A stretch of DNA of 64,000 bases from an uncultured Desulfovibrionaceae bacterium. GTDB taxonomy: Bacteria; Desulfobacterota; Desulfovibrionia; Desulfovibrionales; Desulfovibrionaceae. Position 1 is the first letter of the stretch, and each line of letters begins with the position of its first letter. This document shows, one piece after another, positions 4,382 through 62,197 of this stretch. The translations under genes were made by a program, and so were the position numbers. Location: contig CALUUT010000022.1 in the NCBI GenBank assembly GCA_944324045.1, positions 1 to 64,000 on the forward strand. Reading direction: 5' to 3'. A model generated the notes under the pieces. The model saw only the letters and a list, made by a program, of their open reading frames with translations, did not search any database and was not told where the DNA came from.

Positions 4382-4384
4382 GGC

Positions 4385-5122
4385 ATGGAACTGCTTGAAC
4401 GTTTTTCTCCTTTGATGGGCGAGGCTTTGCATTGTTCGGGAACGCCCGAAGGGCTCGCGTTGCCCCTGAAGGAGGTGCAGGCCCGGCTGGCGCGCCTGGC
4501 GGATCAGGAACGCGCAGCCGCGCCCGTGGCGGGCAACGATTTATTGCCCGATTTTTCCGAAACCAGGCGGCGGGAGCTGGATATGTGCCGGTTCGCGGTC
4601 TATGCGTGGGTTGACGAAAATTTGCTGAACGCTCCGCGCGAGGATGCCGCCGCGTGGATGCCCTTGAGCCTTCAGTATCGGTATTTCCGCACCACTGCGG
4701 CGGGGCAGCGTTTTTTTGCGTACCTTGACGAATTGCTCGACAGCTTTAGGTTGCCTTTGGACGAGAATGGTCAACCGCTTGATCTTGCCAAGCGTTTGGA
4801 ACTGGCGGGCGAAATTGCGCCCGCCGCGTCGGGTGCGGATGTGCTGCGAGTGTTTGCGTTATGTTTGCTTTACGGATTCCGGGGGCGCCTGTACGGGCAG
4901 CCGGAACTGCTGGCACAGGTCCGAAAGGCCTGTTATGGATTGCTTTCCGCGCGGAAACCGAAGACTGCGGAACAGGTTTCACCGGCGCAGGAAGGGAAGA
5001 AAACAACCCTGCTTCGCTCGCTGGAACCGGTCGCCTATGTGCTTGTTCCCATCCTTATTTGCGCCGCTTTCGGACTGTATTGCGCCGATATTCTGGCCAA
5101 TACCCCGATTAAGGGATTTTGA
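4385..5122 (+). CDS. tssL: T6SS inner-membrane protein TssL (DotU/IcmH family)
   Basis: This 245-residue protein is a short TssL. Its cytoplasmic helical-bundle domain contains the family segment FAVYAWVDENLLNAP (about residues 65-79) and the L-x-LLYGFRGRLYGQPE motif near residue 165. A single C-terminal transmembrane helix (about residues 218-238) is followed by only a few periplasmic residues. It has no OmpA-like peptidoglycan-binding domain, so cell-wall anchoring must come from another protein. TssL binds TssM in the inner membrane and recruits the baseplate through TssK. ATG 4385 comes 3 bases after tssK. Confidence 0.93.
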   Translation: MELLERFSPLMGEALHCSGTPEGLALPLKEVQARLARLADQERAAAPVAGNDLLPDFSETRRRELDMCRFAVYAWVDENLLNAPREDAAAWMPLSLQYRYFRTTAAGQRFFAYLDELLDSFRLPLDENGQPLDLAKRLELAGEIAPAASGADVLRVFALCLLYGFRGRLYGQPELLAQVRKACYGLLSARKPKTAEQVSPAQEGKKTTLLRSLEPVAYVLVPILICAAFGLYCADILANTPIKGF

Positions 5123-5169
5123 TTTTAGTGCAGCCCGCCCCGGCGTCGGCTGAAGAGAGGCTATTCCCG

Positions 5170-8466: not shown

Positions 8467-8470
8467 CAGT

Positions 8471-9079
8471 ATGAACTCCTTACGAATTCTTTTTCGCTGG
8501 ATGTTGCTTGGCTGGTTGATACTGGTGATTCTCATGAGCGTCATTGTGGCGCACAGCACGGATTCCGCCGCGCCGGGAAATCTGTTGGCTTTTCTGTTTA
8601 CGCGGACAGAGACGTCCATTTCTCTGCCGCCTTTGTCCATTACTTCGCCACGGGAGCCAATGGCCTCTGAGCCTGAACCTGCGCCATCCCCTGCGGCGCC
8701 TTTGCCGGCGGAATGGACGCCTCTTGTACAGGGGCGGCAGGCTGGGAAAGGCGTGCTTGGCGAACCCGAAGTTCGAGTTCTTGACGACGGCTCGCTGGAA
8801 GTGCGGTTGGCCTGCGCCGGGACGCCGGGCGATTTTACGATGTACCATCCCGGCAATGTGCCTTCATTGTCTGTGGACTTGCAGGGGAACTGGAGCAAGG
8901 GAATACTATTTGATCGAAAGCTTGCGGAGAGCTGCCTGAGCCGCATTCAAATCGCAAAACATCCAAAGTGGGTGCGCGTGTCAGGCGTGGCAAGGGACGG
9001 TAAGCGCGGACTTTCCGTCAGGGTTGAACATTCGGCCAAGGCTGGGATTATACGGATTATTTTCAGCGCGGGACAGTAG
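8471..9079 (+). CDS. Membrane-anchored protein with AMIN-like C-terminal domain, between tssM and tssE
   Basis: This protein of about 202 residues is not one of the 13 core T6SS components. Residues 3-27 form one membrane helix. A proline-rich linker (PEPAPSPAAPLPAEW) follows at about 66-82. The last 100 residues look like a beta-rich domain with alternating hydrophobic positions (SLEVRLACAG, LSVDLQGNW, IIRIIFS), resembling AMIN domains that bind peptidoglycan or secretion partners. ATG 8471, after GGTGA, is the preferred start; ATG 8456 is possible and overlaps tssM. It lies 4 bases after tssM and directly before tssE, so it belongs to the operon. A cell-wall anchor or assembly factor is a plausible inference because TssL lacks such a domain. 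The AMIN similarity is judged by eye only. Confidence 0.6.
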   Translation: MNSLRILFRWMLLGWLILVILMSVIVAHSTDSAAPGNLLAFLFTRTETSISLPPLSITSPREPMASEPEPAPSPAAPLPAEWTPLVQGRQAGKGVLGEPEVRVLDDGSLEVRLACAGTPGDFTMYHPGNVPSLSVDLQGNWSKGILFDRKLAESCLSRIQIAKHPKWVRVSGVARDGKRGLSVRVEHSAKAGIIRIIFSAGQ

Positions 9080-9080
9080 C

Positions 9081-9500
9081 GTGTCAAGACTTCGTTTTCT
9101 TGAGCGATTAAGGCGGATGCAGTATGAAACGGAACGCCGGGGAGCGGTGGAAGTCGAAGATGTGTTGCAGTCTGTGATTGATTACGTTAGCAAAATCCTC
9201 AATACGCGACAGGGCAGCACTGTATTGGACGACGCCTTCGGAATTCCGGACTTCACCAGTGCCGGTGTGAGTTTTACCAATGAGGATATTCCAAACCTTG
9301 AACGAGAAATTGCGGCGTTTGTGGGACGTTGCGAGCCAAGGCTGCATAATGTGCAGGTGCGTTTTACGCCTGACCCCGGCGCGCCGTTGCAGATGATTTT
9401 TTCACTGAACGCCGAGTTGCGTCTTGGGAAAAATGAGTTTTTACCTGTCCATTTTGTGACCAGGGTCAATCCTCTGGGGAAAGTCACGGTAACGCAGTAA
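9081..9500 (+). CDS. tssE: T6SS baseplate protein TssE (gp25-like)
   Basis: This 139-residue protein is TssE, homologous to phage T4 gp25, which starts sheath polymerisation in the baseplate. Family marks include the R-L-x-x-I/V-x-D-L-x-x-L-L-N-T-R-x-G region, here DVLQSVIDYVSKILNTRQG at about residues 28-46. They also include the phrase GIPDFTS and the NLEREIAAFVGRCEPRL segment, which contains the conserved E-P-R-L motif. The predicted start is GTG 9081, one base after the upstream stop. An in-frame ATG at 9024 would overlap the previous gene. It is the last gene of the plus-strand arm and is followed by a symmetric terminator. Confidence 0.93.
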   Translation: MSRLRFLERLRRMQYETERRGAVEVEDVLQSVIDYVSKILNTRQGSTVLDDAFGIPDFTSAGVSFTNEDIPNLEREIAAFVGRCEPRLHNVQVRFTPDPGAPLQMIFSLNAELRLGKNEFLPVHFVTRVNPLGKVTVTQ

Positions 9501-9613
9501 GAGAGTTGTTTTTTAGAAAAATGCAGGTGGAGTGGGTCGAGGAAGAAGGGATTGCTGATTTTTTTCGACCTCTTTTTAATAGAAGAGAAGCGACTTTTTG
9601 AGAGGCGGCAGTG

Positions 9614-9643
9614 AAAAGGCGGGGAGCATGTTCCCCGCCTTTT
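9614..9643. terminator. Symmetric bidirectional terminator between converging T6SS arms
   Basis: A perfect 12-base stem (AAAAGGCGGGGA / TCCCCGCCTTTT) encloses a 6-base loop. It gives a U-run on both strands, so it can end transcription of tssE from the left and of the minus-strand gene from the right. Confidence 0.85.
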
Positions 9644-9666
9644 CGTGCGTCAGGAAAAAAGAACGG

Positions 9667-10434
9667 TCAGATCAGGCTGAGGGTGAACAGTTCAGCGTCA
9701 TCGGTTTCCGGGAAGGGGCCGAAGGCGATGACGTCAGGAATTGCGCCCATGCGGACGTAATAGGCATCCGCCGGGGTTAACTTATTTTTGACGCCCCAGC
9801 CTTCGCAGGGGATATTCCGGAGATCGAGCTTGACGCCCTCGACCGGGTAATGGAGCGTACAGCGGGCGGGAATGGTTCCGGCGATGCCGACGCCGTGGAC
9901 AGTTGGAAAGGCCTTGTTCGTATCGGAAGCTCCGCCTGCAAAGAACGCTCCTTCCCATGGATGCGATGCCGGGCCGACTTCAAACCATAACCCAAGGCCG
10001 GTCGGCGCGTGCGGTTTCAGTCTGTATTCCGGGGTCAGTTTTTTGAAGGTGTTGGCTTGCACGGCGGCCTTTGCGCCGAGTCCAGCCTTTACGACGTCGG
10101 CCCCCCGCAGAGGGTCAGGCAGGGCAGAGATGTTTGGCGCGCCCCCTGAAGGTGAAAGCAGGATGGGAAATCCGTTGCCGGATTCGGCTTGTGCGGCGAG
10201 CGCGGCAAGGGCGAGACTTTTACGGATATGTTTGTCTTCAAAATTTGATCCGACGATGACCCACGCGCTGCATGAAGCGAGTTCGCGGGCGGGCAGGCTC
10301 CACGCCATGCTTTCCGGGGCGGCGTCCCAGAAATGGGCCTGCGGCTCAAGCCCGACTCTCGCCAGTTCCTGGCACAGCGCACGGGCAAGTCCTTCGTTTT
10401 TTTCCAGCAGACTGACCAATACACGTTTTTTCAC
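9667..10434 (-). CDS. Conserved-looking unassigned protein at the end of the clpV arm
   Basis: This 255-residue soluble protein was not recognised. Residues 1-60 look like a Rossmann-type start (KRVLVSLLEK, then an alpha-helix and ELARVGLEPQAHFWD). The rest is rich in glycine and proline, with segments such as FEVGPASHPWEGAFFAGGA and VHGVGIAGTIPARC. There is no signal peptide or membrane helix. GAGG lies before the ATG. It is on the same strand as clpV, but a good terminator (10521-10544) lies between them, so it may have its own promoter in the 86 bases upstream. Its position at the tail of the T6SS arm suggests a link with secretion. Nothing in the sequence shows whether it is an accessory protein, effector or immunity factor. 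Confidence 0.7.
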   Translation of the reverse strand: MKKRVLVSLLEKNEGLARALCQELARVGLEPQAHFWDAAPESMAWSLPARELASCSAWVIVGSNFEDKHIRKSLALAALAAQAESGNGFPILLSPSGGAPNISALPDPLRGADVVKAGLGAKAAVQANTFKKLTPEYRLKPHAPTGLGLWFEVGPASHPWEGAFFAGGASDTNKAFPTVHGVGIAGTIPARCTLHYPVEGVKLDLRNIPCEGWGVKNKLTPADAYYVRMGAIPDVIAFGPFPETDDAELFTLSLI

Positions 10435-10520
10435 AGTAACCTCGGTTGTTTCCTTTCCTTAGCTTTTCAAACATCCACAGGCGATTGAGACCAAGTGCGG
10501 GATTTGATGTAAGAAGAGAA

Positions 10521-10544
10521 GGCGCCTTTCTGAAGAAAGGCGCC
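10521..10544 (-). terminator. Terminator after clpV
   Basis: A perfect 10-base stem (GGCGCCTTTC / GAAAGGCGCC) with a 4-base loop lies just past the clpV stop. On the minus strand it is followed by TTCTCTTCTT. Confidence 0.8.
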
Positions 10545-10558
10545 CTTTACCCTGGAGT

Positions 10559-13258
10559 TCATTCCGAAAACGTCATTTTGAACGCGCCGTCGTCGTCCAC
10601 ATCGATGGCGACGGATGTGGGCATCCCGCCGTCAGACATATGCTCAAGGATGCTGTGCGCAAGACGCGGGAGTACGGAGCCGGACAGAATGTATTCAATG
10701 TTGCGCGCTCCGGTCTCCGTTTCTGTGCAGCGCGCCACAATCTGATCGACCACCGCGGGCGCGTAGGTCATGGCCATGCCGTTGTTTTCGCGCAGGCGGC
10801 GAACCAGAGAGCGGAGCTTGAGGTCGGCAATGAGATTCATTGCCGAACGTGCAAGACTGCGATAGGGGACAATGGTCATGCGCGCAAGGAGCGCTGGCCG
10901 GAAGTGTTCTGAAAGCACCGGGCGGATGACTTCAATGAGGGAGTCTATGCCAACTTCGGCGTCGTTCCCTGTCATTTCCTGAATGAGGTCCGAAGCAAGG
11001 TTCGAGGTCAGCATGATAATGGTGTTTTTGAAGCTTACTTCTTTGCCTTCGCCGTCAGTGAGCGTGCCCTTATCAAATACCTGATAGAACAGGTTCAGCA
11101 CGTCGAGATGAGCTTTTTCCACTTCATCAAGCAGCACCACTGAATAGGGCCGGCGGCGTACCGCTTCCGTGAGCATGCCGCCTTCGCCGTAACCGACGTA
11201 GCCGGGCGGGGAGCCGATGAGTCGCGACACAGTATGTTTTTCCTGAAATTCGCTCATATTTACAGAAACAACGCTGCTTTCATCGCCAAACAGGAGCTCC
11301 GCCAGCGCAATGCCGGTTTCCGTTTTGCCAACCCCGGATGGGCCTACAAGCAAAAATACGCCAAGAGGCTGGTTCGGGGAACGCAGTCCTGCGGATGATG
11401 CCTGAATTGCGCGTGTGATGGCTTGCAGGGCGAAGTCTTGTCCTTTAATGCGCCGGCCAAGCAGGGTGTCCAGGTCTTTGGCGACGGCGGCTTGTTCCTG
11501 CGCCATGCGGCCTACGGGGATGCCAGTCCAGTCGGCGACGACCTGCGCCACCACGTCGGGCGTCACTTCCACATGCAGCAGGCTTCCGCGTTCACGCAAG
11601 GCTTCAAGCCGTTTTTTTGCAGCTTCAAACGTTATTGCGGGATCTGGCCGCTCCTTGGCATCCTCTGTTTCAGAGGCTGGCCGGGAAGAATCCGTTTCCG
11701 GAGAATCCGCCGGCAGAGACCGCGCCGGGGCGTCCGCAGCGGCAAGCATGGCGGCGCGGCAGGCAATATAGGTTTCAGCGGCCTCTTTTTCTTCCTTCCA
11801 TTCGGTTTCAAGAGCGGCAGCCTCTTTCTGAAGCGATGCAATGCGGGCTTCGAGGGCCGCCATGCGTTCACTGTCCACAGTCACGCCATTGCGCAGGTCT
11901 CGCTGAAGTCCACGAAATTCGCGTTGCGCAGCCTGTTCCGCACGTTCTTTGTCCTCCAGCGGAGCAGGTTTGGCAGAGAGGCTGACCTTGACTCGCGCAC
12001 AAGCGGTATCAAGCAGGTCAATGGCTTTATCCGGCAGGAAACGTCCCGTGATATAGCGGTGCGCGAGACTGGCGGCGGCTTCAAGCGCATCATCGCGTAC
12101 CAGCACTTTGTGGGCTTTTTCATAGTTGTCGCGGATGCCGCGCAGAATCAGCGCGGTAACCTCTACAGAAGGCTCGTCAAGCTTTACAAGCTGGAATCGA
12201 CGGGCCAGAGCGGGATCTTTTTCAAAATATTTTTTGTATTCCTTCCAGGTTGTTGCGGCGCAGGTGCGAATCTCGCCGCGCGCCAGGGCCGGCTTCATGA
12301 GGTTGGCGGCGTCTGAGCCGCCCGCCTGTCCGCCTGCGCCCACCAGCATGTGGGCTTCGTCAATGAAAAGCACGATAGGCTTTTCGCTGGATTTGATTTC
12401 ATCGAGCACGCCTTTGAGGCGACGTTCAAATTCGCCTTTCATTCCGGCCCCGGCTTCAAGCAGCCCCATGTCAAGCGAAAGGAGAGTCACGCCGCTTAGC
12501 ACCTCAGGCACGTCGCCTTCCACAATGCGCAGGGCCAGCCCTTCAAGCACGGCGGTTTTGCCGACGCCCGGCTCGCCCACAAGGATGGGGTTGTTTTTGC
12601 GACGGCGGGCGAGAATATCAACCATTTGCCGGATTTCCTCATCGCGTCCGAACACCGGGTCGATTTTTCCGGCTTTGGCCTTGGCTGTAAAGTCTTCGCA
12701 GAACTTGGCGATAAAACTTTCGCCAGGCTGTCCGGCCACGGCTGGGGCTCCCGAAGATGCGCCGCCGGACAGTGAGAGTGTCGTTTCCTTTGAAACCTGA
12801 GCAAGTTTTCCAAAATCGCGAAGCAGCTCTTCTCTGTTGATGGAAGAAAAGGCGTCTGTATAGTTGCCTTGCGCGTAGACTGCGGGCTTGCGGAGGAAGG
12901 CCAGAAGCATGGCGCCGGACCGGATTTGGGAGAGGCCAAGATCTACGGAGCTTATGAGCCATGCGGATTCCATGAGCTCAATGAGCAGGGGGGAAAATAC
13001 CGGGCGGCCGGCGTTGCCGGAACGGAAATCGTCCAGCACGGCATTCAGGCCGCGGATGGCCTTTGCCGGATCCGCGCCGAAGCGTTCCAGCGCCAGCGGA
13101 ATATCGCTGCGGGCATCGGCGAGGCAGGCGAGCAGATAATGTTCGATAGTGACTTCATAATGGGTGCGGTTGACCGCCTGTCCCGCAGCGGCATGAAGCG
13201 CCGCCGTCGAAAAGTCGTTGCATTTTTCCAACAGGGCCTTGATGTCGACACCTATCAT
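10559..13258 (-). CDS. clpV: T6SS ATPase ClpV (TssH)
   Basis: This 899-residue AAA+ protein recycles the contracted TssBC sheath in the cytoplasm. The Clp N-domain spans about residues 1-150. The first ATPase domain has Walker A GEPGVGKT near residue 228. A ClpB-type coiled-coil middle domain lies at about 420-520. The second ATPase domain has Walker A GPSGVGKT near residue 640, and a C-terminal D2-small domain follows. It is assigned as ClpV rather than ClpB because of its place next to hcp and tssC. The middle domain also carries an extra acidic, serine-rich stretch (about 515-555). AGGAG precedes the ATG by 6 bases. A strong hairpin separates it from hcp. Confidence 0.95.
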   Translation of the reverse strand: MIGVDIKALLEKCNDFSTAALHAAAGQAVNRTHYEVTIEHYLLACLADARSDIPLALERFGADPAKAIRGLNAVLDDFRSGNAGRPVFSPLLIELMESAWLISSVDLGLSQIRSGAMLLAFLRKPAVYAQGNYTDAFSSINREELLRDFGKLAQVSKETTLSLSGGASSGAPAVAGQPGESFIAKFCEDFTAKAKAGKIDPVFGRDEEIRQMVDILARRRKNNPILVGEPGVGKTAVLEGLALRIVEGDVPEVLSGVTLLSLDMGLLEAGAGMKGEFERRLKGVLDEIKSSEKPIVLFIDEAHMLVGAGGQAGGSDAANLMKPALARGEIRTCAATTWKEYKKYFEKDPALARRFQLVKLDEPSVEVTALILRGIRDNYEKAHKVLVRDDALEAAASLAHRYITGRFLPDKAIDLLDTACARVKVSLSAKPAPLEDKERAEQAAQREFRGLQRDLRNGVTVDSERMAALEARIASLQKEAAALETEWKEEKEAAETYIACRAAMLAAADAPARSLPADSPETDSSRPASETEDAKERPDPAITFEAAKKRLEALRERGSLLHVEVTPDVVAQVVADWTGIPVGRMAQEQAAVAKDLDTLLGRRIKGQDFALQAITRAIQASSAGLRSPNQPLGVFLLVGPSGVGKTETGIALAELLFGDESSVVSVNMSEFQEKHTVSRLIGSPPGYVGYGEGGMLTEAVRRRPYSVVLLDEVEKAHLDVLNLFYQVFDKGTLTDGEGKEVSFKNTIIMLTSNLASDLIQEMTGNDAEVGIDSLIEVIRPVLSEHFRPALLARMTIVPYRSLARSAMNLIADLKLRSLVRRLRENNGMAMTYAPAVVDQIVARCTETETGARNIEYILSGSVLPRLAHSILEHMSDGGMPTSVAIDVDDDGAFKMTFSE

Positions 13259-13289
13259 TTGCTTCTCCTGTCCGCGGGAAAGAAACTGT

Positions 13290-13325
13290 CCGTCGAGCCG
13301 GCCAGCGAAAAGGCCGGGTCGACGG
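13290..13325 (-). other. Intergenic hairpin between hcp and clpV
   Basis: A 14-base stem (13290-13303 with 13312-13325) with one mismatch encloses an 8-base loop in the 93-base gap after hcp. On the minus strand only scattered T residues follow it, so it is more likely an attenuator or 3' RNA stabiliser for hcp than a full terminator. Confidence 0.6.
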
Positions 13326-13351
13326 ATTTCAGCGGAAATGTCAATGGATTG

Positions 13352-13831
13352 TTATTTTTTCCAGTCGTCAACATATTCAATGTTGCCGTCATTGAAGGTC
13401 CAGGTAATCTTGGAGTAGGTGAAGGCCACGTTCTCCATGTCCTGATAGGGTTTGCTGTCCGGGAGGAAGGTCAGCGGCGTGTAATGGGACATTTCCACCA
13501 CGATAGCGTCCTCCATTTTGACCGTATAGTATTTGTCCTCTGAGCCGTCCTCTTTGATTCGATAGAAGTCAATGGTCACTTCGCATTGTTCGCCTGTGCA
13601 GCAGGCTTTGTAGAGTTTGGGCGAGGCCACATCCACAGCCTTGGTGATTACATAGGGATGATGGATGCGCTGTCCGGTGGGCAGGCCGGTATGAGTATCC
13701 TTGGGAATTTCGACGCGGTGCGTTTCTCCGTAAACGAGAATTTTATCGGCCTTGTCGCCGCCCTGATTGCAACTGCCTTTGATATCGCCCTGATTTTTGC
13801 CCTTGACGGCCATGTAGGAAGTAAGAGGCAT
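13352..13831 (-). CDS. hcp: T6SS tube protein Hcp (TssD)
   Basis: This 159-residue protein is Hcp, the hexameric ring that stacks into the inner tube. It starts with the typical PLTSYMAVKGKNQGDIKG and contains the Hcp segment SPKLYKACCTGEQ. It also has the conserved FYRI and YYTVKMEDAIVVEM strands (about 88-115) and ends with the strand pair TYSKITWTF. The presence of three cysteines (two adjacent, CC) near residue 76 is a notable detail. AAGGAG lies upstream of the ATG. Separate gaps on both sides (49 bases from tssC, 93 bases to clpV, the latter with a hairpin) fit the usual high, uncoupled expression of hcp. Confidence 0.95.
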   Translation of the reverse strand: MPLTSYMAVKGKNQGDIKGSCNQGGDKADKILVYGETHRVEIPKDTHTGLPTGQRIHHPYVITKAVDVASPKLYKACCTGEQCEVTIDFYRIKEDGSEDKYYTVKMEDAIVVEMSHYTPLTFLPDSKPYQDMENVAFTYSKITWTFNDGNIEYVDDWKK

Positions 13832-13880
13832 AAAAAAGCTCCTTTTAGGAATAAAAGAGTGAAATGATCACGTTGTTTTT

Positions 13881-15350
13881 TTATTGCTTTTCAAGCTTGC
13901 CGACGAGCGAGAGGGTAAAGCTTGCGCCCATATATTTGAAGTGCGGACGGGCCATAAGACTGACCGAATACCAGCCGGGATCTCCCTCCACGTCGCTGAC
14001 CGTAATTTTCGCCATGCGCAGAGGGCGCTTGCTGCGGGTAGTGGGATCAGGATTATCCATTTCGGTCACGTACTGACTGATCCATTTATTCAACTCGCGG
14101 TCAAGATCAACGCGCTCTTTCCAGCTTCCGATATTTTCCCTCTGGATAACTTTGATATAGTGGGCCAGTCGATTCATGATCATCATATAGGGAAGTTGAG
14201 TGGACAGCTTGAAATTCATTTCGGCTTCCTTCCCTTCAGGCGTGTTGGGGAAGGTTTTGGCCTTAAGCGCGGAATTAGCGGAGAAGAAGGCCGCATTGTC
14301 TGACCCCTTGCGCATGGTCAGGGCGATGAAGCCTTCCTCGGCAAGTTCATATTCCCGGCGTTCGGAAATAAGCACCTGCGTAGGGATTTTTGTCTGCATC
14401 TGCCCCATGCTTTCAAATTGGTAGAGGGGCAGGTTTTCCACTGTGCCGCCGCCCTGCGGACCGATGATATTGCTGCACCAGCGGTATTTGGCGAAACTGT
14501 CGGTCAGACGCGCGGCAAAGCAGAAAGCGGTATTGCCCCAGCAGAACTGGTCGTCTCGAGCGGCTTCTTCCTTGAAATTAAAACTCTTGGCCGGAACGGT
14601 GTCTTCTCCATACGGCAGGCGCAGCAGAAATTTGGGCAGAGTAAGACCCACATAGCGGGCATCTTCCGATTCGCGGAAAGAACGCCATTTGGCGTATTGC
14701 GGCATTTCGAAAACAGAATGCAGGTCTTTGAGGTTGGGAAGCTGATCCCATGACTCAATGCCGAAAAATTCTTTCCCCGCCGCAGCTATGAACGGGGCGT
14801 GAGACATGGAAGCCACGCTGGCGACGTATTGGAGAAGCTGGATATCCTGCGGTTTGGGGCCGAACTCGTAGTTCGCGATAATCGCGCCTACGGGCTGTCC
14901 GCCGAACTGGCCGTATTCCGCTGTATAGACATGTTTGTACAGACCGGACTTGACTACTTCCGGGGCGTCCTCAAAGTCCTCAAGAAGGTCGGACTTCGAA
15001 ACATTGATGAATTCCAGCTTGATATTTTGCCTGAAATCCGTGTTGTCTACAAGGAATTTCATGGATCGCCATGCGGATTCAAGCTTGGCGAACGATTCAT
15101 TGTGCAGAATTTCGTTCACCTGCAGGGACAGTTTGGCATCAAGTTCGGCGATCATCTCATCGACCATCGCGCCGGATATTTTTTGCGTGCCCTGCGTTCC
15201 GGCAAGCTCTTTAATGAATGCCTGCAATCCGGCGCGAGTAAGGGCATATCCGTCATCAGACGGAGTCAGTTTGGAGGCTTCGACGATTTCGTCAAGCAGG
15301 CTGCCGCCCGCTGTCGCGGTCTGTTGGGTTTCCTGTTCTGTTTGGCTCAT
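13881..15350 (-). CDS. tssC: T6SS sheath large subunit TssC (VipB)
   Basis: This 489-residue protein is the large sheath subunit, which forms the contractile sheath with TssB. Typical marks include the WRSMKFLVDNTDF segment (about residues 93-105), the VGAIIANYEFGP segment, and the phrase HAPFIAAAGKEFFG near residue 190. The conserved RLPYGEDTVPAKSFNFKE motif lies near residue 248. The C-terminal end SVSLMARPHFKYMGASFTLSL is typical of the family. Its length is normal. It starts 12 bases after tssB, so the two subunits are made from one message. Confidence 0.96.
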   Translation of the reverse strand: MSQTEQETQQTATAGGSLLDEIVEASKLTPSDDGYALTRAGLQAFIKELAGTQGTQKISGAMVDEMIAELDAKLSLQVNEILHNESFAKLESAWRSMKFLVDNTDFRQNIKLEFINVSKSDLLEDFEDAPEVVKSGLYKHVYTAEYGQFGGQPVGAIIANYEFGPKPQDIQLLQYVASVASMSHAPFIAAAGKEFFGIESWDQLPNLKDLHSVFEMPQYAKWRSFRESEDARYVGLTLPKFLLRLPYGEDTVPAKSFNFKEEAARDDQFCWGNTAFCFAARLTDSFAKYRWCSNIIGPQGGGTVENLPLYQFESMGQMQTKIPTQVLISERREYELAEEGFIALTMRKGSDNAAFFSANSALKAKTFPNTPEGKEAEMNFKLSTQLPYMMIMNRLAHYIKVIQRENIGSWKERVDLDRELNKWISQYVTEMDNPDPTTRSKRPLRMAKITVSDVEGDPGWYSVSLMARPHFKYMGASFTLSLVGKLEKQ

Positions 15351-51034: not shown

Positions 51035-51148
51035 TGAGCGGGCGGCATGACGGCCGTAGTCTTGATTGTTCGATGCGCGACAGCTTTTTATAAGCCAATA
51101 CGCGTATTGCGTCCAGCGTCATGGAATGCAAAAAAATGTGGCTGTAAG

Positions 51149-51177
51149 TTGACAAGGTTTTTCATTCGTCTTAGCTT
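51149..51177 (+). promoter_or_regulatory. Candidate promoter of the first feoAB operon
   Basis: TTGACA (51149-51154) and TAGCTT (51172-51177) with 17 bases between them lie in the 258-base gap before feoA. The -10 is poor, so this is tentative. No Fur box is evident. Confidence 0.4.
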
Positions 51178-51292
51178 CTCTTTTACCGTCGGAAGCCGTC
51201 CGCCTTGGCATGGAATGCGCAGGACAATGAGGCGGACTCCTTTTTGCGGCCCTTGCCTTTCATGCAGGCGTTTTAAAAAAGAAGGTGTTGAT

Positions 51293-51568
51293 ATGATGCA
51301 CAATACAGCAATGCCGGCTCAGGCTGAAGAACATCCCAGAGCTGTGGAACTTAAAGATATGGCTGTGGGCGAAAGCGGGTCTGTTGTCCGCATTTGCGCT
51401 GTTGGCGAATTGGGACGGCGCATCCGCGATATGGGCATTATTCCCGGAAGCCGTCTTTGCGTTACTGGCCGCGCGCCGCTCAATGATCCTTTGACCATAC
51501 GTTTGCGGGGTTATACCCTGTCTTTGCGCGGCAGTGAAGCCGCATACATATTGGTGGAGCCGGATTAA
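51293..51568 (+). CDS. feoA: Ferrous iron transport protein FeoA (first system)
   Basis: This protein of about 91 residues has an SH3-like FeoA domain from about residue 18 (VELKDMAVGESGSVVRI). It includes the typical RRIRDMGIIPGSRLCVTGRAPLNDPLTIRLRGYTLSLRGSEA stretch. An N-terminal extension of about 18 residues is unusual. FeoA regulates or supports FeoB. GAAGG precedes ATG 51293, and ATG 51296 is also possible. The feoB start overlaps its stop (TTAATG). A long in-frame upstream extension (from 51047) has no site and is not used. Confidence 0.92.
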   Translation: MMHNTAMPAQAEEHPRAVELKDMAVGESGSVVRICAVGELGRRIRDMGIIPGSRLCVTGRAPLNDPLTIRLRGYTLSLRGSEAAYILVEPD

Positions 51569-53679
51569 TGCCTGAGAATTTCATATCCATAGCCCTTGCG
51601 GGGAACCCCAACTGCGGAAAGTCCACCATTTTTAATGCCATAACGGGGGCGCACCAGCATGTGGGCAACTACCCCGGCATTACTGTTGAAAAAAAAGAAG
51701 GATTTGCCGCATCCGACGGGCAATCAGTGAAAGTCATCGATTTGCCCGGAACCTATTCGCTGACCGCGTATTCCCTGGAGGAGCGCGTGGCGCGGAGGGT
51801 TTTGCTCAATGAGCGTCCTAATGTGGTTATCGACATCGCGGATGCGGGCACCCTTGATAGACATCTGTATCTGGCCGTGCAACTGATGGAGATGGGCATC
51901 CCCTTTGTTCTGGGGCTTAACATGATGGATGAGGCCCGCCAGAAGGGAATCAGCATCAATCTTGAGCTGCTTTCGAAACGATTGGGCATACCTGTTGTTC
52001 CGACAGTGGGACGAACGGGAGAAGGCGTTCGGGAGCTGCTTGCCGTTGCGTGCCGGACGGCTCGGGAGCACGCCGGGCATCCATGGCGGCCGCGGCGGCT
52101 TTCCTATGGGCCTGATCTGGATGTGGCTCTTGTGGAGATGGTGTCGCTTATTGAAAAACAGTCCTTTTTAACAGCGCTGTTTCCGGCCCGCTGGATTGCG
52201 CTTAAGTATCTTGAGGCCGATTCTGAAATTATACGCATCGGACGTGGCGCAGATGAAAAGACATCCTCTGCTCTGGAAAACATGGTTCAGGAAGTGACCG
52301 GCCATCTTTCTCAAACCCTGGAAACCTATCCTGAAGCCGTTATTTCCGATTACCGGTATGGATACATCAGCGCGCTGTTGCGGGACGGCGTGGTCAGCAG
52401 CCCGGAAAACGCCCGAAATCGTATGGCGTTTTCTGAAAAGATAGACAAGGTTCTGACTCAGCGCCTGATTGGGCCCATCGTCATGTTGGCGGTCATGTAC
52501 CTGATGTACAAGGTGACATTTTCCGTCGGCGAAATTCCAATGGGATGGATTCAGGCTTTTTTTGGTTGGCTGGCGGAGTTTGTGGACGGCATCATGCCGG
52601 ATGGGCTGGTCAAGTCTTTGGTTGTTTCAGGCGTAATCGAGGGCGTGGGCGGTCTGTTCGGTTTTGTCCCGCTTATTGTCGTGGTTTTTCTTTTTATCGC
52701 GGTGCTTGACGATTCAGGATATATGGCGCGCATAGCCTATATGCTGGACAGAATTTTTCATTTTTTTGGCCTGCACGGTTGTTCCGTCATGCCTTTTATC
52801 ATATCAGGCGGCATTGCCGGCGGTTGTGCGGTGCCCGGGATTATGGCCACCAGAACATTGCGGAGTTCCAAGGAGCGCCTTGCGACCATCCTGACCGCGC
52901 CTTTTTTTTCCTGCGGGGCCAAGCTTCCGGTCTTTCTCCTGATCAGCGCCGTGTTTTTTCCTGAAAGAGGGCCACTGGTCATGTTTTTGCTGACGCTTGC
53001 CGGTTGGCTTGTGGCCTTGTTGATTGCCCGTTTATTACGCTCCACCGTGATATCCGGCGCAGGGACTCCTTTTGTAATGGAATTGCCGCCGTATCGGCTT
53101 CCAACGTTAAAAGGCGTGCTTATTCATACCTGGGAACGAACGTTCGCCTATATTAAGAAAGCAGGCACTGTGGTTCTCGCCATAACCATTGTAATATGGG
53201 CCGCCATGACCTACCCCCGGCTTCCGGCGGCCGAGAGCGCAAAGTATGCGTCTGATGAAGAGATGCAGATGGCGGCGCTTCGTCATTCCATTGCGGGCAG
53301 AATCGGGGTGGCGTTGGAGAATGTGACCCAGTATGCGGGATTTGACTGGCGCGGCAATATTGCGCTTATTGGAGGGTTTGGAGCAAAGGAGGTTATTGTT
53401 TCCACTCTGGGAACCGCTTATTCCCTTTCCGGGAATGAGGAGGAAAACAATGAAAATCTCATTCAGCGGATACGGGAAGATCAGCATTGGCGGGACAATA
53501 CTCCGGCAGCCATATCGTTTCTGCTTTTTGTGCTTTTGTATTCGCCGTGTTTCATGGCGGTTGTGGTTATCGCCAAGGAAGCCGGCTCATGGCGTTGGGG
53601 GCTCTTTAGTGTGATTTTTAATACGCTTGTGGCTTTTGCAGCGTCAGTTGTTATATATCAGGTCGGGCGATTGCTGTAG
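51568..53679 (+). CDS. feoB: Ferrous iron transporter FeoB (first system)
   Basis: This 703-residue protein joins an N-terminal G-domain to a Gate-type membrane domain. The G-domain has P-loop GNPNCGKSTIFNAITG (about 11-26), G2/G3 (YPGITVEKKEG and DLPGTYSL) and LNMMDEA. The first gate region reads FIISGGIAGGCAVPGIMATRTL near residue 408-430. Compared with standard FeoB it carries four extra residues (GIAG) before the conserved Cys-x-x-Pro-G. The cysteine in FFSCGAKLPVF is the second gate site. Fe2+ uptake is expected, though the altered gate leaves room for another metal. It overlaps feoA and precedes a small gene. Confidence 0.94.
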   Translation: MPENFISIALAGNPNCGKSTIFNAITGAHQHVGNYPGITVEKKEGFAASDGQSVKVIDLPGTYSLTAYSLEERVARRVLLNERPNVVIDIADAGTLDRHLYLAVQLMEMGIPFVLGLNMMDEARQKGISINLELLSKRLGIPVVPTVGRTGEGVRELLAVACRTAREHAGHPWRPRRLSYGPDLDVALVEMVSLIEKQSFLTALFPARWIALKYLEADSEIIRIGRGADEKTSSALENMVQEVTGHLSQTLETYPEAVISDYRYGYISALLRDGVVSSPENARNRMAFSEKIDKVLTQRLIGPIVMLAVMYLMYKVTFSVGEIPMGWIQAFFGWLAEFVDGIMPDGLVKSLVVSGVIEGVGGLFGFVPLIVVVFLFIAVLDDSGYMARIAYMLDRIFHFFGLHGCSVMPFIISGGIAGGCAVPGIMATRTLRSSKERLATILTAPFFSCGAKLPVFLLISAVFFPERGPLVMFLLTLAGWLVALLIARLLRSTVISGAGTPFVMELPPYRLPTLKGVLIHTWERTFAYIKKAGTVVLAITIVIWAAMTYPRLPAAESAKYASDEEMQMAALRHSIAGRIGVALENVTQYAGFDWRGNIALIGGFGAKEVIVSTLGTAYSLSGNEEENNENLIQRIREDQHWRDNTPAAISFLLFVLLYSPCFMAVVVIAKEAGSWRWGLFSVIFNTLVAFAASVVIYQVGRLL

Positions 53680-53700: not shown

Positions 53701-53907
53701 ATGGGGGAAAGAAGGAAAATGCTTTTTCCTTTTTTCATCAAGTCCCCAACCTTTCTTTATGAGTATGGGTTGCCCGTATGCGTTGGGGCATTTTATAAAG
53801 AGTTCGGGGAGAAATTATTTCCTTCGGCGGAGTCTGTGGCGGAGCCTCAAAAGATGATTCAGAAAAAAATCCAGGGGAAAGGCGGCTTCATGTGCGCTTT
53901 CCCCTGA
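53701..53907 (+). CDS. Possible small protein after FeoB, 68 residues
   Basis: ATG 53701 follows AGGAG and lies 21 bases after feoB in the same direction. The peptide has an amphipathic start (MLFPFFIKSPTFLYEYGLP) but no clear membrane helix and no Cys motif, so it is not the usual FeoB-associated Cys-rich protein. The reading frame ends inside the hairpin that terminates the convergent FKBP gene. No family is recognised, and a chance frame cannot be excluded. Confidence 0.4.
   Translation: MGERRKMLFPFFIKSPTFLYEYGLPVCVGAFYKEFGEKLFPSAESVAEPQKMIQKKIQGKGGFMCAFP
53874..53904 (-). terminator. Terminator of the FKBP gene
   Basis: An 8-base stem (GGGGAAAG / CTTTCCCC, extendable with a bulge) is followed on the minus strand by TGGATTTTTTT. 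It lies 28 bases past the stop of the FKBP gene. Confidence 0.7.
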
Positions 53908-58117: not shown

Positions 58118-58525
58118 TCAGGCTTTTGTCCGCTCAATATGTTTTTTTATTGCCTCAAAACTTTCCGTACTGAGCACATGCTCAATTCTGCATGCATCTT
58201 CCACGGCCACTTCCGGCGTCACGCCCAACTCCGTCAGCCATGAGGACAGAAGGTTATGGCGCTCGTAAATACGTGTCGCAATATCGCGTCCTGATTCCGT
58301 CAATGTGATGTGCCCTTGAGGAGAGACCATGATATGATTGCTCTGCCGCAATTTTTTCATAGCCACGCTGACGCTTGATTTTTTAAATTTCAGTTCTGTT
58401 GCAATATCTACAGAACGGACAACAGCGGAGCTTTTGCTCAAAATCAAAATGGCTTCCAGATAATTTTCAGAAGATTCATTTGTGTTCATAGTAGGTTGCG
58501 CCTGTATCGCCGTTTTTTTGTCCAT
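58118..58525 (-). CDS. DtxR-family metal-responsive regulator
   Basis: This 135-residue protein has the DtxR/MntR winged helix (ENYLEAILILSKSSAVVRSVDIATELKFKKSSVSVAMKKL, about residues 20-59). Its dimerisation domain contains likely metal ligands in HNLLSSWLTELGV and EDACRIEHVLS (about 89-118). There is no C-terminal SH3 domain, so it is short like MntR. The start may be ATG 58525 (GAAGG is very close) or ATG 58489. It is divergent from the second feo operon across 201 bases and probably represses it with Fe2+ or Mn2+ bound. Confidence 0.88.
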   Translation of the reverse strand: MDKKTAIQAQPTMNTNESSENYLEAILILSKSSAVVRSVDIATELKFKKSSVSVAMKKLRQSNHIMVSPQGHITLTESGRDIATRIYERHNLLSSWLTELGVTPEVAVEDACRIEHVLSTESFEAIKKHIERTKA

Positions 58526-58632: not shown

Positions 58633-58661
58633 TTGATAGCTAATAACAGTTAGAGTAGACT
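58633..58661 (+). promoter_or_regulatory. Promoter of the second feo operon
   Basis: TTGATA (58633-58638) and TAGACT (58656-58661) are separated by 17 bases, and the first feoA starts 65 bases further on. Confidence 0.6.
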
Positions 58662-58665
58662 AACT
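58640..58665. promoter_or_regulatory. Candidate DtxR-family operator with phased half-sites
   Basis: A perfect inverted repeat AGTTAG-N6-CTAACT lies at 58648-58665 over the -10 box. A further CTAA at 58640-58643 pairs with the same TTAG. The CTAA/TTAG/CTAA cores are exactly 10 bases apart, one helical turn. The cores match the TTAG/CTAA halves of known DtxR boxes. Confidence 0.55.
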
Positions 58666-58726: not shown

Positions 58727-58939
58727 ATGCTGCCGCTGACAATGGCCACTATCGGAGAGGTGAATGTAATCCGAAGGGTGAACGGAAATGGGGAAACCAA
58801 ACGATTTCTGGAAAACCTCGGGTTTGTCATTGGAGCTGAAATTACGGTGCTCTCGGCGATTGGAGGAAATGTGATTGTTTGCGTCAAGGATTCCAGAGTT
58901 GCGATCAACGCGGATATGGCGCGGCATATAATGGTTTGA
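58727..58939 (+). CDS. feoA: FeoA-domain protein (second system, first copy)
   Basis: This 70-residue protein is a single FeoA SH3-like domain (ATIGEVNVIRRVNGNGETKRFLENLGFVIGAEITVLS, then VIVCVKDSRVAINADMARHI). The conserved E-L-G-F-V-x-G pattern is kept. GAAGGTG precedes the ATG. It is the first gene of feoA-feoA-feoB and is probably a cofactor of the transporter. It is more diverged than the next copy, so the two may have different roles. Confidence 0.9.
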   Translation: MLPLTMATIGEVNVIRRVNGNGETKRFLENLGFVIGAEITVLSAIGGNVIVCVKDSRVAINADMARHIMV

Positions 58940-58986: not shown

Positions 58987-59211
58987 ATGACCTTGGGTGA
59001 AGCGGAAGTCGGAAGTACTGTTGTTGTAACCAAGATTGATGGAGATGGGGCGTACAGGCGCCGGCTCATGGATATGGGAATTACAAAAGGAACCGAGTTG
59101 TTTATCAGAAAAGTGGCTCCTCTTGGAGATCCTGTGGAGATTACGGTGCGAGGCTATGAGCTTTCTGTGCGAAAGAATGATGCCCAGTGCGTGCAGGTCA
59201 ATGTGAGATAA
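58987..59211 (+). CDS. feoA: FeoA protein (second system, second copy)
   Basis: This 74-residue FeoA has the common motif set, with GEAEVGSTVVVTKIDGDGAYRRRLMDMGI (about residues 4-32), then APLGDPVEITVRGYELSVRKNDA. It is closer to the standard FeoA than the gene before it. GAGAGGG precedes the ATG. It lies 47 bases after the first copy and 31 bases before feoB. Confidence 0.93.
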   Translation: MTLGEAEVGSTVVVTKIDGDGAYRRRLMDMGITKGTELFIRKVAPLGDPVEITVRGYELSVRKNDAQCVQVNVR

Positions 59212-59242: not shown

Positions 59243-61426
59243 GTGGCTATAAAAATTGCGCTTGCCGGAAACCCGAATTGTGGCAAGACCACCATGTTTA
59301 ACGCGCTGACTGGGGCCAACCAGTATGTTGGAAACTGGCCGGGCGTTACTGTGGAGAAAAAAGAAGGCAAATTAAGGGGCAAAAGAAAGAATGACAATAT
59401 TATTGTCACGGACCTTCCGGGCATTTATTCCCTTTCGCCTTATACCCTGGAAGAGGTTGTCAGTCGTGATTATTTATTGAAAGAGAATCCCGATGTCATT
59501 ATCAATTTGGTTGATGCAACCAATATTGAAAGAAATCTGTATCTGTCGACGCAGTTGATTGAGACGGGGATTCCGGTCGTTATAGCCTTGAATATGGCGG
59601 ATCTGCTTGCAAAAAGAGGGATTAAAATAGATGTTCAACGCCTTTCCATGCTTTTGAACTGTCCGATAATCGAGACGTCCGCTTTGAAACAGAGCGGCCT
59701 TGATGCCTTGATTGATGAGGCCGTTCGGGTTGCAAACAAGGAAAGCGTGGATTTGCCGAGAGAAATTTTTTCAAAAAAGATGGAAAAGGCCATTGAGGAA
59801 GTAAAGGGCGTTCTTCCTGAAGCCGTCACGGAAGATAAAAAAAGATGGTATGCCGTCAAATTCCTTGAAAATGACAGCAAGGTTGTGGAAAGCATGGCGC
59901 TTTCCGCTGCCGGAAAAGATTGCGTCGCAAAACAGAGAGAGGACTTGGAAAAAGACTGCGACAGCGACATGGAAAGCATTGTAACTGATGAACGATATCA
60001 GTTCATACAGAAAATTGTCGGTACAACTGTAAAAAAAGGACATGAAAAATTAACGGCATCGGATAAAATAGACCAGATAGTAACAAACCGTATATTGGGC
60101 ATTCCCATCTTTATTATAGTCATGTTTGTTGTATACTATATATCGGTTACAACAATAGGCACTATAGTAACAGACTGGACCAATGATACTTTTGTCGGAG
60201 CCATTCAAGAGGCGGTGGGCGGTTTTCTCGGCAGTATCGGGACGAGCGACGCTATTCAGAGCCTTGTGGTTGACGGCATTATCGGCGGCGTGGGGGCTGT
60301 GCTCGGATTTGTTCCCCAGATGGCGATTTTATTCCTTTTCCTGTCGCTTCTGGAAGATTGCGGGTACATGGTGCGCATCGCATTCGTCATGGACCGTGTT
60401 TTCAGGCACTTTGGATTATCCGGCAAAAGCTTCATTCCTCTTTTGATTTCTTCCGGATGCGGCATACCGGGAATCATGGCGTCGCGGACCATTGAGCAGG
60501 ACAACGATCGGCGTTTGACCATTATGACCGCCACCTTTATTCCGTGCGGCGCAAAACTTCCGGTTATCGCCCTGATGGGCGGCGTGATGACAAGCTATGC
60601 CACCGGCAGTTACGAAGTCGGCGGATTGATGGCGCCTGTCATGTATTTCCTTGGAATTGTGGCTGTGCTTGTTTCCGCCATAATTTTGAAGAAAACTAAG
60701 CCGTTCTCAGGAAAACCGGCCCCATTTGTCATGGAACTGCCCCAGTATCATATTCCGTCCGCACGGACCGTGCTCCTTCATGTGTGGGAGAGATTAAAGG
60801 GCTTTATCATCAAGGCCGGAACGATTCTGTTCTTGGCTTGCGTCGTCATGTGGTTCCTTAGCGGATTTGGATTCACCGAAAGCGGCTTTGGCCTTGTGGA
60901 AGACAGCGCCGACAGTCTTCTGGCTGTAATCGGCGGATTTATCGCGCCTATCTTTATTCCGCTTGGTTTCGGCGAATGGCAGCCGGTCGCCGCGTCTCTT
61001 TCGGGATTTACTGCAAAAGAGGCCATTGTATCCACCATGGGCGTCTTGGCCAATGTGGCTGGCGACACGGAAGATGCCGTGACCGTGGCCCAGGCTGTCC
61101 AGGTGTGGTTCCCAAGCTCCTTGGCCGCATTTACCTTCCTTCTGTTCAACTTGCTGGATTCTCCCTGTCTTGCGGCGGTCGCCACTATGGCGCAGCAGAT
61201 GCAGTCCAGAAAGTGGTTTTGGTTTGCGATTTTGTTCCAGAATGTCTTTGCATATGTGGTTTGCCTGTGCATCTATCAGATAGGCTCTTTCCTGACCGGC
61301 GGCGGGTTCGACGTCGGAACGGTTTTCGGCATCGTGTTCGCCTTGCTGATTGTTTATCTGTTGTTCAGGCCGGATCCTTACAAACATAACAAGGTTTATT
61401 CAAAGCTGTCCGTACAGGTGGCTTGA
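59243..61426 (+). CDS. feoB: Ferrous iron transporter FeoB (second system)
   Basis: This 727-residue FeoB has the G-domain (GNPNCGKTTMFNALTGANQYVGNWPGVT, DLPGIYSLSPY, LNMAD) and a GDI-like helical region. The membrane domain has a gate region FIPLLISSGCGIPGIMASRTIE (about 397-418) that aligns with ordinary FeoB without insertion. The second gate cysteine is in FIPCGAKLPVIALM. It begins at GTG 59243, 8 bases after AGGAGG. It differs clearly from the FeoB at 51.6-53.7 kb, so the two are separate lineages rather than a recent duplication. Three small accessory genes follow it. Confidence 0.95.
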   Translation: MAIKIALAGNPNCGKTTMFNALTGANQYVGNWPGVTVEKKEGKLRGKRKNDNIIVTDLPGIYSLSPYTLEEVVSRDYLLKENPDVIINLVDATNIERNLYLSTQLIETGIPVVIALNMADLLAKRGIKIDVQRLSMLLNCPIIETSALKQSGLDALIDEAVRVANKESVDLPREIFSKKMEKAIEEVKGVLPEAVTEDKKRWYAVKFLENDSKVVESMALSAAGKDCVAKQREDLEKDCDSDMESIVTDERYQFIQKIVGTTVKKGHEKLTASDKIDQIVTNRILGIPIFIIVMFVVYYISVTTIGTIVTDWTNDTFVGAIQEAVGGFLGSIGTSDAIQSLVVDGIIGGVGAVLGFVPQMAILFLFLSLLEDCGYMVRIAFVMDRVFRHFGLSGKSFIPLLISSGCGIPGIMASRTIEQDNDRRLTIMTATFIPCGAKLPVIALMGGVMTSYATGSYEVGGLMAPVMYFLGIVAVLVSAIILKKTKPFSGKPAPFVMELPQYHIPSARTVLLHVWERLKGFIIKAGTILFLACVVMWFLSGFGFTESGFGLVEDSADSLLAVIGGFIAPIFIPLGFGEWQPVAASLSGFTAKEAIVSTMGVLANVAGDTEDAVTVAQAVQVWFPSSLAAFTFLLFNLLDSPCLAAVATMAQQMQSRKWFWFAILFQNVFAYVVCLCIYQIGSFLTGGGFDVGTVFGIVFALLIVYLLFRPDPYKHNKVYSKLSVQVA

Positions 61427-61439
61427 TAGGATACATAGG

Positions 61440-61468
61440 GTGAAGCCGGATGCCATATCCGGCTTCAC
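61440..61468 (+). other. Intercistronic hairpin after feoB
   Basis: A perfect 11-base stem (GTGAAGCCGGA / TCCGGCTTCAC) with a 7-base loop lies between the feoB stop and the Cys-rich gene. Only an A-run follows, so it is probably an RNA-processing or stability element, not a terminator. Confidence 0.6.
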
Positions 61469-61489
61469 CTGCAAAAAAGGGGCTTGGAA

Positions 61490-61666
61490 ATGGTGGCGGA
61501 TGCTGTTGTTTTGACGTTGATCATTGGATATTGCGTATTTTTTTTGGCGCGCAGATACAAAAAGGCAAAGAATGCCGCCAAACAGGGTTGCCCTGGACGC
61601 TGCGCAGGGTGCTGCGGGTGCGGAAACGCACTGTACAGTGAGATATTTAAGGAAAAACGGAGCTGA
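61490..61666 (+). CDS. FeoB-associated Cys-rich membrane protein
   Basis: This 58-residue protein has one N-terminal membrane helix (about residues 5-20), a basic segment and a cysteine cluster (GCPGRCAGCCGCG). This is the pattern of the FeoB-associated Cys-rich family. It may bind iron or act with FeoB at the cytoplasmic face. AAGGGG lies 7 bases before ATG 61490; a TTG at 61484 is an alternative. It is the first of three accessory genes after feoB. Confidence 0.88.
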   Translation: MVADAVVLTLIIGYCVFFLARRYKKAKNAAKQGCPGRCAGCCGCGNALYSEIFKEKRS

Positions 61667-61671
61667 AGTCT

Positions 61672-61818
61672 ATGGGGGATTCGACCGGCTCGATGTTTTA
61701 TGCTTTTCTGGTTTTTATTTTATTATATGTTGTGGGCATGATTCTGTATCAGGGATATTCGTTTATCAAAAAAAGGCGGGGAAACAGGAAAAGCCGTCAT
61801 ACCGATATGAAGCGTTGA
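61672..61818 (+). CDS. 48-residue single-pass membrane peptide in the feo operon
   Basis: ATG 61672 opens 49 codons that end 10 bases before the next gene. The peptide has one clear membrane helix (MFYAFLVFILLYVVGMILY, residues 8-26) and a strongly basic tail (KKRRGNRKSRHTDMKR), so the C-terminus should be cytoplasmic. It starts 5 bases after the Cys-rich gene and lies in the same direction. GGAG and GAAG lie upstream. No family is recognised. Its length and topology fit a small regulator or stabiliser of FeoB, but this is inferred from position only. Confidence 0.6.
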   Translation: MGDSTGSMFYAFLVFILLYVVGMILYQGYSFIKKRRGNRKSRHTDMKR

Positions 61819-61828
61819 GAGAAGAACT

Positions 61829-62197
61829 ATGGCTGATATTATTATTGTTCTTGTGGTTGCCGTCTTGCTTGGATTGGCGTTGAGGGGAACCATCAAACAT
61901 TTTAAAGGGGAAGGCGGCTGCTGCGGCAAAGGCGCTTGCGACAGCCAGGCAAAAAAGGAAAAGAAGGAACTGACTCATCCTGTTCTTGGGAAAAAGAGTA
62001 TTCGCATAGCCGGCATGCATTGTGAGCGCTGCGTGCGGAACCTCACCCGTGCAATCAACAAAATCGAAGGCGCTTCTGCAAAGGTCAGTTTGAAAGAAGA
62101 ACGGGCCGTAGTTTTCTACGACAGGCCTCTGGATGACGCGCAACTTCGTCAGGCGGTGGAAGCTGCCGGGTTTCAGGTGCTGTCCATTGAATCGTAG
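61829..62197 (+). CDS. Membrane-anchored HMA-domain metal-binding protein
   Basis: This 122-residue protein starts with a membrane helix (IIIVLVVAVLLGLAL, residues 4-18). A short Cys-rich loop (GGCCGKGACDS, about 29-39) follows, like the FeoB-associated Cys-rich family. It then continues into an HMA domain with metal-site GMHCERCVRNLTRAI (about 62-76). HMA domains normally bind Cu+, Zn2+ or related soft metals. Its place at the end of a feo operon therefore suggests a metal chaperone or sensor for the transporter, which is inference. GAGAAG precedes the ATG. The operon ends at a hairpin shortly after. Confidence 0.85.
   Translation: MADIIIVLVVAVLLGLALRGTIKHFKGEGGCCGKGACDSQAKKEKKELTHPVLGKKSIRIAGMHCERCVRNLTRAINKIEGASAKVSLKEERAVVFYDRPLDDAQLRQAVEAAGFQVLSIES

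Follow-up and report, generated by a model that had tools for sequence, protein, structure and literature searches.

How FeoB moves, how it selects Fe(II) and what role its small partners play is an open question. In the DNA analysed here (the window, a stretch of 64,000 nucleotides from an uncultured Desulfovibrionaceae bacterium), a complete feo cluster occupies the last 6 kb, and feoB is followed by a tail of three small genes. The initial annotation had described their products as a Cys-rich membrane protein, an undescribed 48-residue peptide (p48) and a fusion of an HMA domain to a membrane segment in the Cys-rich style, and it had suggested that together they could be a metal relay or quality-control unit around FeoB. 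The question is what such proteins do beside FeoB.

Layout of the feo cluster

The features of the cluster are listed below with their coordinates in the window and their strand.

58118..58525, - strand: gene of a metal-dependent repressor of the DtxR/MntR family, transcribed away from the feo genes (PF02742, 58.6 bits; PF01325, 42.1 bits)
58650..58663, unstranded: putative DtxR/MntR-type operator TTAGAGTAGACTAA, overlapping a promoter-like site at 58633-58661 (promoter scan)
58727..58939, + strand: feoA1 (PF04023, 58.3 bits)
58987..59211, + strand: feoA2 (PF04023, 80.2 bits)
59243..61426, + strand: feoB, 727 aa (TIGR00437, 556 bits over the cut-off)
61439..61469, + strand: intercistronic hairpin with a 13-bp perfect stem (folding and shuffles)
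61490..61666, + strand: FeoB-associated Cys-rich single-pass membrane protein, 58 aa (PF12669, 25.4 bits, cut-off 27)
61672..61818, + strand: p48, a 48-aa basic single-pass peptide (motif MG(D/N)STGSMFY..Y..G...Y....KK)
61829..62197, + strand: membrane anchor (KHFKGEG-CC motif) fused to an HMA domain with the metal loop GMHCERC (PF00403, 44.6 bits, cut-off 24.8)

All three tail frames were confirmed, on the + strand; p48 starts 5 nt after the Cys gene, and a gap of 10 nt separates it from the HMA gene. The frame of the Cys protein was listed from a TTG at 61484 (61484-61666, 60 aa); the ATG at 61490 (58 aa) was preferred because the starts of the relatives align there. Hydropathy and charge predicted the same topology for all three products, namely a single membrane helix that leaves a short N-terminus outside and the C-terminus in the cytoplasm. 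The C-terminal side was the more basic one in 69 of 69 relatives for p48, 50 of 51 for the Cys protein and 72 of 72 for the HMA protein or its anchor.

Two further long FeoB proteins were seen in this genome besides the one at the end of the window. The second feoB (51568-53679, 703 aa) lies 6 kb upstream, behind a frame that looked FeoA-like by eye (region 51047-53679). No PF12669, p48 or anchored-HMA match was found behind it, and a 68-aa frame follows at 53701-53907. The third FeoB (824 aa; contig C31, L252 884-3358) is 31-35% identical to that of the cluster in the matching pieces.

Conservation of the tail at FeoB loci

GTDB genomes were scanned with the window's FeoB and the best 80 of 563 relatives were taken, a selection by FeoB similarity that is biased to the window's clade. 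Locus L113 stops 74 nt past feoB, which leaves 79 loci with readable downstream DNA. Among these 79, drawn from the best 80 of 563, the profiles found the Cys protein in 72, p48 in 70 and the HMA protein or its anchor in 72 (69 with the HMA motif); these figures are a count and no independent test, since the profiles derive partly from the same loci. Plain blastp before the profiles gave 51/80, 68/80 and 72/80 for the Cys protein, p48 and the HMA protein, respectively. All three genes were present in 66 of the 79 loci, and the order Cys, p48, HMA was kept in 66 of these 66. The recurrence of this order shows that the three-gene tail is more than a chance arrangement. The survey of feo loci that the initial annotation had suggested therefore backed the part of its view that ties the unit to FeoB, by order as well as by linkage in relatives, and the 48-residue frame, on whose conservation that view had been made to depend, was kept in 70 of the 79 loci.

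Incomplete tails were also found. The anchor is present without the HMA motif in L065, L098 and L115, and L136 has a p48-like frame, 194-319 nt past feoB, without the Cys or HMA protein; the ORFs after it are Fur-like (by eye) and DtxR-like. This lone frame suggests that p48 belongs to FeoB itself; its E of 6e-06 was obtained in a small ORF set only, and it fails the whole-genome search at E<=0.01. Four loci of the clade (L090, L095, L104 and L109) have the Cys protein alone and two (L131 and L135) lack all three, from which it follows that FeoB does not need the tail to work.

On the FeoB tree, 5 to 7 changes were counted per tail gene, and a test of whether p48 and the HMA protein are gained or lost together gave no significant result. 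Because the tail genes change so seldom on the tree, much of their co-occurrence is explained by shared ancestry. The order is conserved in at least two phyla, and p48 and the HMA protein, the two candidate partners added here, recur in Bacillota and Spirochaetota.

p48 as a gene family

The consensus of p48 starts with MGDSTGSMFY. Across 50 sequences G2, S7 and Y19 never vary, and near-invariance was seen at M1, M8, G22, Y26 and K34. pN was smaller than pS in 1482 of 1485 pairs (55 sequences, 36 codons), and p48 is under purifying selection. Judged by its sequences, p48 is a real gene family. The peptide was predicted as a single helix over residues 4-37, and a conserved face of this helix, Y19-G22-Y26 (a weak signal, p 0.038), suggests packing against a partner.

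No consistent Pfam or NCBIfam family was found among 50 members at E<=0.1. The commonest Pfam match was shared by 9 of the 50 (COX14, best E 8.3e-05) and the commonest NCBIfam match by 7, the best single NCBIfam E being 2.5e-05 (KPN_two_small, 2 members). The nearest PDB sequence had an E of 0.26, and no description of a p48-like peptide was found in the literature searched. These results are in line with its first description as an undescribed peptide.

The p48 profile was run over 35 whole genomes behind the loci, of which 28 had a match at E<=0.01. In 28 of 28 the best match followed a FeoB whose end shares 74-89% identity with that of the window, and the HMA protein came next. Many of these p48 sequences had themselves gone into the profile; the result shows a single-copy, feoB-linked gene. 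Five strong matches were found in 250 genomes of the family of G153, the centre genome included; all were behind a FeoB at least 76% identical, and four of the five had the HMA protein. In 398 genomes from the phylum of G153 and in 198 from the phylum of G182, the one strong match was in each case the centre itself. Judging from these searches, p48 is rare and its strong matches sit at FeoB of the window's clade. The family may nevertheless be wider than the described clade: short single-pass peptides right behind FeoB (57-61% identity) in L176, L179 and L180 match the profile weakly (E 3e-5 to 1.7e-4) and may be divergent p48. Weak matches in L165, L166, L167, L168, L170, L171, L177, L178 and L181 were set aside as chance, the fetched stretches being without FeoB.

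The Cys-rich protein and FeoB classes without the tail

The Cys protein scored below the PF12669 gathering score of 27, with 25.4 bits in the protein scan and 24.5 in the genome scan. It fits the traits of that family in its place right behind feoB, its single helix and its cytoplasmic Cys cluster (predicted topology). By these traits the Cys protein is of the described kind, below the formal membership score, and hence only two of the three tail proteins are considered new. According to the accessible text of one paper, PF12669 proteins sit downstream of feoB in Firmicutes and Bacteroidetes with their function open, the domain also occurs at the C-terminus of FeoB, and the translation of the Cys-rich ORFs into functional peptides is an unanswered question (PMC8749426). 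Ten cases of FeoAB fused to PF12669 are given in the accessible part of another (PMC8980893). A third PF12669-like match in the window's own genome (L052 45-845, contig C77; 23.2 bits) falls on the membrane segment at the N-terminus of a frame that looked RnfB-like by eye.

Further FeoB loci were taken from genomes of G153's family, and ORFs of at least 28 aa with a clear hydrophobic stretch were considered. Of 70 chosen loci 41 were readable; the 29 dropped ones had a FeoB end that could not be placed by the window's FeoB. Nine of the dropped loci are from the 53-55% class, and the other 20 make up the whole under-47% class, which had been chosen as a control. Six of the 41 belong to the window's clade (at least 67% identity): p48 and the HMA protein were found in L182 and L183, the HMA protein in L187, the Cys protein in L184, and none in L185 and L186. 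L182, L184 and L185 are loci L061, L095 and L131 again. Neither p48 nor the HMA protein was found in the 35 readable loci outside the clade (0/35), and other FeoB classes were thus not supported as carriers of the tail in these loci. A Cys-rich single-pass ORF was present in 30 of the same 35. The Cys protein therefore looks older and commoner, whereas p48 and the HMA protein look like additions of the clade. Outside the clade, weak p48-profile scores (E 0.02-0.9) and HMA-profile scores (E down to 4e-06) fell on Cys-rich single-pass ORFs, which indicates that the anchors are related in style.

The anchored HMA protein

The HMA protein belongs to PF00403, with a score of 44.6 bits, an MxCxxC-type loop (GMHCERC) and a predicted HMA fold. 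In the AlphaFold model a helix covers residues 2-25, residues 26-42 are mostly below a pLDDT of 50, and the beta-alpha-beta-beta-alpha-beta HMA fold covers residues 54-121 with a mean pLDDT of 81. The best Foldseek matches were domains of ATP7B, CopZ and PacS, and the protein is below the NCBIfam cut-offs for the CopZ copper chaperone (46.4 vs 95 and 42.9 vs 85). Its anchor resembles the Cys protein, as first described; against PF12669 (cut-off 27) the anchor reached 25.0 bits alone and 27.1 bits with its neighbours in frame.

The metal loop reads GMHCxxC in 55 of the 69 relatives with the HMA motif. Twenty hand-picked, high-scoring HMA-only matches elsewhere in 50 genomes read GMMCxxC (18), GMSCxxC (1) and GMVCxxC (1). 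Since domain 3 of the copper ATPase ATP7B has the loop GMHCKSC, the GMHC loop is compatible with Cu(I) and names no metal alone.

In 50 of the 80 genomes 44 full-length anchored-HMA matches were found, and 42 of them were taken as feoB-linked because there is one each in genomes whose feoB locus has the gene. The other two are distant paralogues (L254 1202-1591 and L255 3078-3494; 31-33% identity), for which the 5 to 6 kb examined gave no match to FeoB. The initial annotation had named an HMA gene unlinked to feo in relatives as evidence against its view; here 42 of 44 copies are the linked ones. The L254 paralogue adjoins an ORF that looked Fur-like by eye, and both paralogues are near a common small ORF (MLxCLxCxxWK...GVLFGTAGIK). 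An HMA protein beside feoB was not found described in the literature searched, in which few subscription papers were covered; p48 and the anchored HMA protein with the GMHCxxC loop thus appear undescribed in the searches made.

Regulatory elements

Of the 74 rows whose upstream DNA extends for 800 nt or more, 61 have the pattern TTAGN6CTAA, which we take to be the DtxR/MntR box, in the 1000 nt before feoB, compared with 4 occurrences in 161,196 nt of feoB coding DNA. With a predicted operator upstream and the regulator gene divergent from the feo genes, the operon in the window is a candidate for DtxR/MntR control. The regulator is 74% identical to a homologue divergent from feoA in L093, and DtxR-like ORFs were the commonest other neighbours seen (13 loci); Fur-like ORFs (by eye) were present in 7. 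In the accessible part of a study of the Faecalibacterium feoAABC operon, feoB was repressed by excess ferrous iron (PMC10781979), which agrees with iron control of such operons.

The hairpin before the tail genes, which had been noted initially, was confirmed in the window, where the fold of 61420-61500 has -28.6 kcal/mol (z -2.46) and 3 of 200 shuffles were as good. A perfect stem of at least 8 in the 80 nt after feoB recurred in 24 of 80 rows, whereas four control windows placed within feoB gave 0, 0, 3 and 1 of 80; 56 of the 80 rows were without one. The letters of the stem vary by lineage, and several relatives have a short T-run behind it. The window has no T-run there, so that a terminator is unlikely, and the terminator scan of the window found no + strand site between feoB and the tail; this reading was rejected. 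The hairpin is possibly a processing or stability element. As for known RNA elements, the only match was to SAM-II, behind the operon, and it was rejected at 22.1 bits against a gathering score of 44.

Origin of the cassette

A quick tree was built from 90 FeoB, with SH-aLRT as its only support measure. In it the window's FeoB falls inside Bacillota as sister to L058, a Eubacteriales MAG (SH-aLRT 98), and 29 Spirochaetota FeoB form a clade of their own. The host is a diderm, with T6SS and LptD genes in the window; the type VI secretion genes (TssK, TssM-like, TssH and the sheath large subunit) were seen at about 2996-15350. In the draw from the host's phylum, the own genome gave the one strong p48 match (1/395), and the 394 others gave none. 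In 149 genomes of the host's family, the own included, the best other p48 match had an E of 0.013. Among the HMA-protein matches listed in these 149 genomes, none ran from the anchor start through the HMA domain; a few start inside the anchor (residue 22 or 25), in a frame of ATPase size or across a stop, and one in G060 covers the anchor alone (residues 3-38, E 3.5e-4). The GC of the cluster genes is 0.40-0.51 vs 0.537 ± 0.038 for 32 long ORFs of the window. FeoB matches were also found in 32 plasmid records, all less than 60% identical.

Because FeoB nests in Bacillota and the 394 other genomes of the phylum draw lack a strong p48 match, horizontal transfer out of a Bacillota lineage is the most likely and simplest account of how the cassette came to be in this genome. 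An assembly chimera would place the cassette here as well, and it would fit both the lack of a strong p48 match in any other genome of the phylum draw and the draft state of the genome (117 contigs). However, the cassette lies inside a contig of 103,865 bases with the diderm T6SS and LptD genes in the same window, the contamination estimate is 0.76, and FeoB is 85% identical to the nearest relative found in a scan from which very near records may be absent. We therefore consider a chimera quite improbable.

Proposed function of the tail

We propose, with a probability of about 40%, that the tail is an accessory membrane module of one FeoB clade, with thiol metal sites at the cytoplasmic face of FeoB. 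The tail genes would probably be co-expressed with feoAAB under metal-dependent DtxR/MntR-type repression, and the hairpin would perhaps set them to another level than feoB. p48 would probably be a small structural subunit that packs on FeoB through the Y19, G22 and Y26 face and its outer MGDSTGSM end. The Cys protein and the HMA fusion would place metal-binding thiols on the cytoplasmic side of the membrane, at the inner mouth of FeoB, and these two arms would take up metal leaving FeoB or trap a wrong (soft) metal. The role as relay, guard or sensor and the metal bound are what we infer. The proposal is based on the conserved order (66/79), the selection on p48, the linkage to FeoB and the recurrence of operator and hairpin, and it is supported by the C-terminal charge bias, the HMA fold match and the difference between the GMHC and GMMC loops. 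The natural fusions of PF12669 to FeoB and FeoAB in the accessible parts of PMC8749426 and PMC8980893 support it as well. Against it stand the shared ancestry behind much of the co-occurrence, the close FeoB relatives that have no tail, the weak helix-face signal of p48, and the nearness of the HMA domain, by sequence and fold, to copper chaperones and copper ATPases, which makes it a poor fit to an iron relay.

The same two arms might instead form a FeoC-like sensor, in which they would respond to iron or to the redox state by switching the GTPase of FeoB and would carry no metal. The place of FeoC is free, since none of the seven feo-cluster proteins of the window matches a FeoC family at E<=1 (Pfam, NCBIfam), and PF12669 proteins are discussed as possible FeoC-like elements, with the Cys motif for metal binding or redox sensing, in the accessible text of PMC8749426. 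However, the tail proteins have no sequence link to FeoC and the HMA fold is the fold of metal carriers, and we regard a sensor as rather unlikely. The structures nearest to the HMA domain, which are copper chaperones and ATPase domains, together with the two distant paralogues away from feo, would suit a chaperone for copper or zinc that works for an exporter in soft-metal detoxification and borrows only the regulation of the feo operon. This explanation seems unlikely to us, because 42 of 44 full-length copies are feoB-linked, the gene accompanies p48 and the Cys protein, and its loop is mostly GMHC compared with GMMC in 18 of 20 other HMA domains checked. Finally, the few independent gains or losses on the tree would be expected if the ORFs were bystanders with no transport role, kept as the operon is inherited or transferred en bloc. 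That the three are bystanders is very improbable, as it is largely refuted by the pN<pS result in 1482 of 1485 p48 pairs and by the invariance of G2, S7 and Y19 in 50 sequences.

A bolder form of the accessory-module proposal, which we consider doubtful, would make p48 the founder of a family, as yet unnamed, of small subunits of FeoB, and would have the feo HMA domain with its GMHCxxC loop leave copper handling for ferrous import, so that FeoA, FeoB, the Cys protein, p48 and the HMA protein would form a five-part cassette moving between phyla. The HMA protein would then carry Fe(II) or strip wrong metal from FeoB. If the HMA arm did work for iron, a soft-metal domain would be serving an unexpected purpose. 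Two further candidate partners of FeoB are added here, and their conserved residues (G2, S7 and Y19 of p48, the GMHCxxC loop and the CC anchor) make a partner role testable in culturable species.

Comparison with known systems

Like the tail proteins, FeoC is a third small component of some feo operons, but it is called cytoplasmic in the accessible text of PMC8749426, and none of the three tail proteins matches it in family scans. With the PF12669 FeoB-associated proteins the Cys protein has in common the position, the single helix and the cytoplasmic Cys cluster; the N-terminus of the HMA protein resembles them too, but this protein adds a soluble domain. In the protein scan the Cys protein (25.4 bits) and the HMA anchor (25.0 bits) are both just under 27. 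The HMA protein shares a predicted fold and the MxCxxC loop with HMA metallochaperones and the HMA domains of P-type ATPases (PF00403; CopZ, ATP7B, PacS). Unlike these, it has a membrane anchor with a CC motif of its own, is encoded behind feoB and mostly has a His before the first Cys (55/69). KdpF, CydX and AcrZ are small single-pass accessory subunits encoded with a large membrane protein, and p48 has the same kind of architecture.
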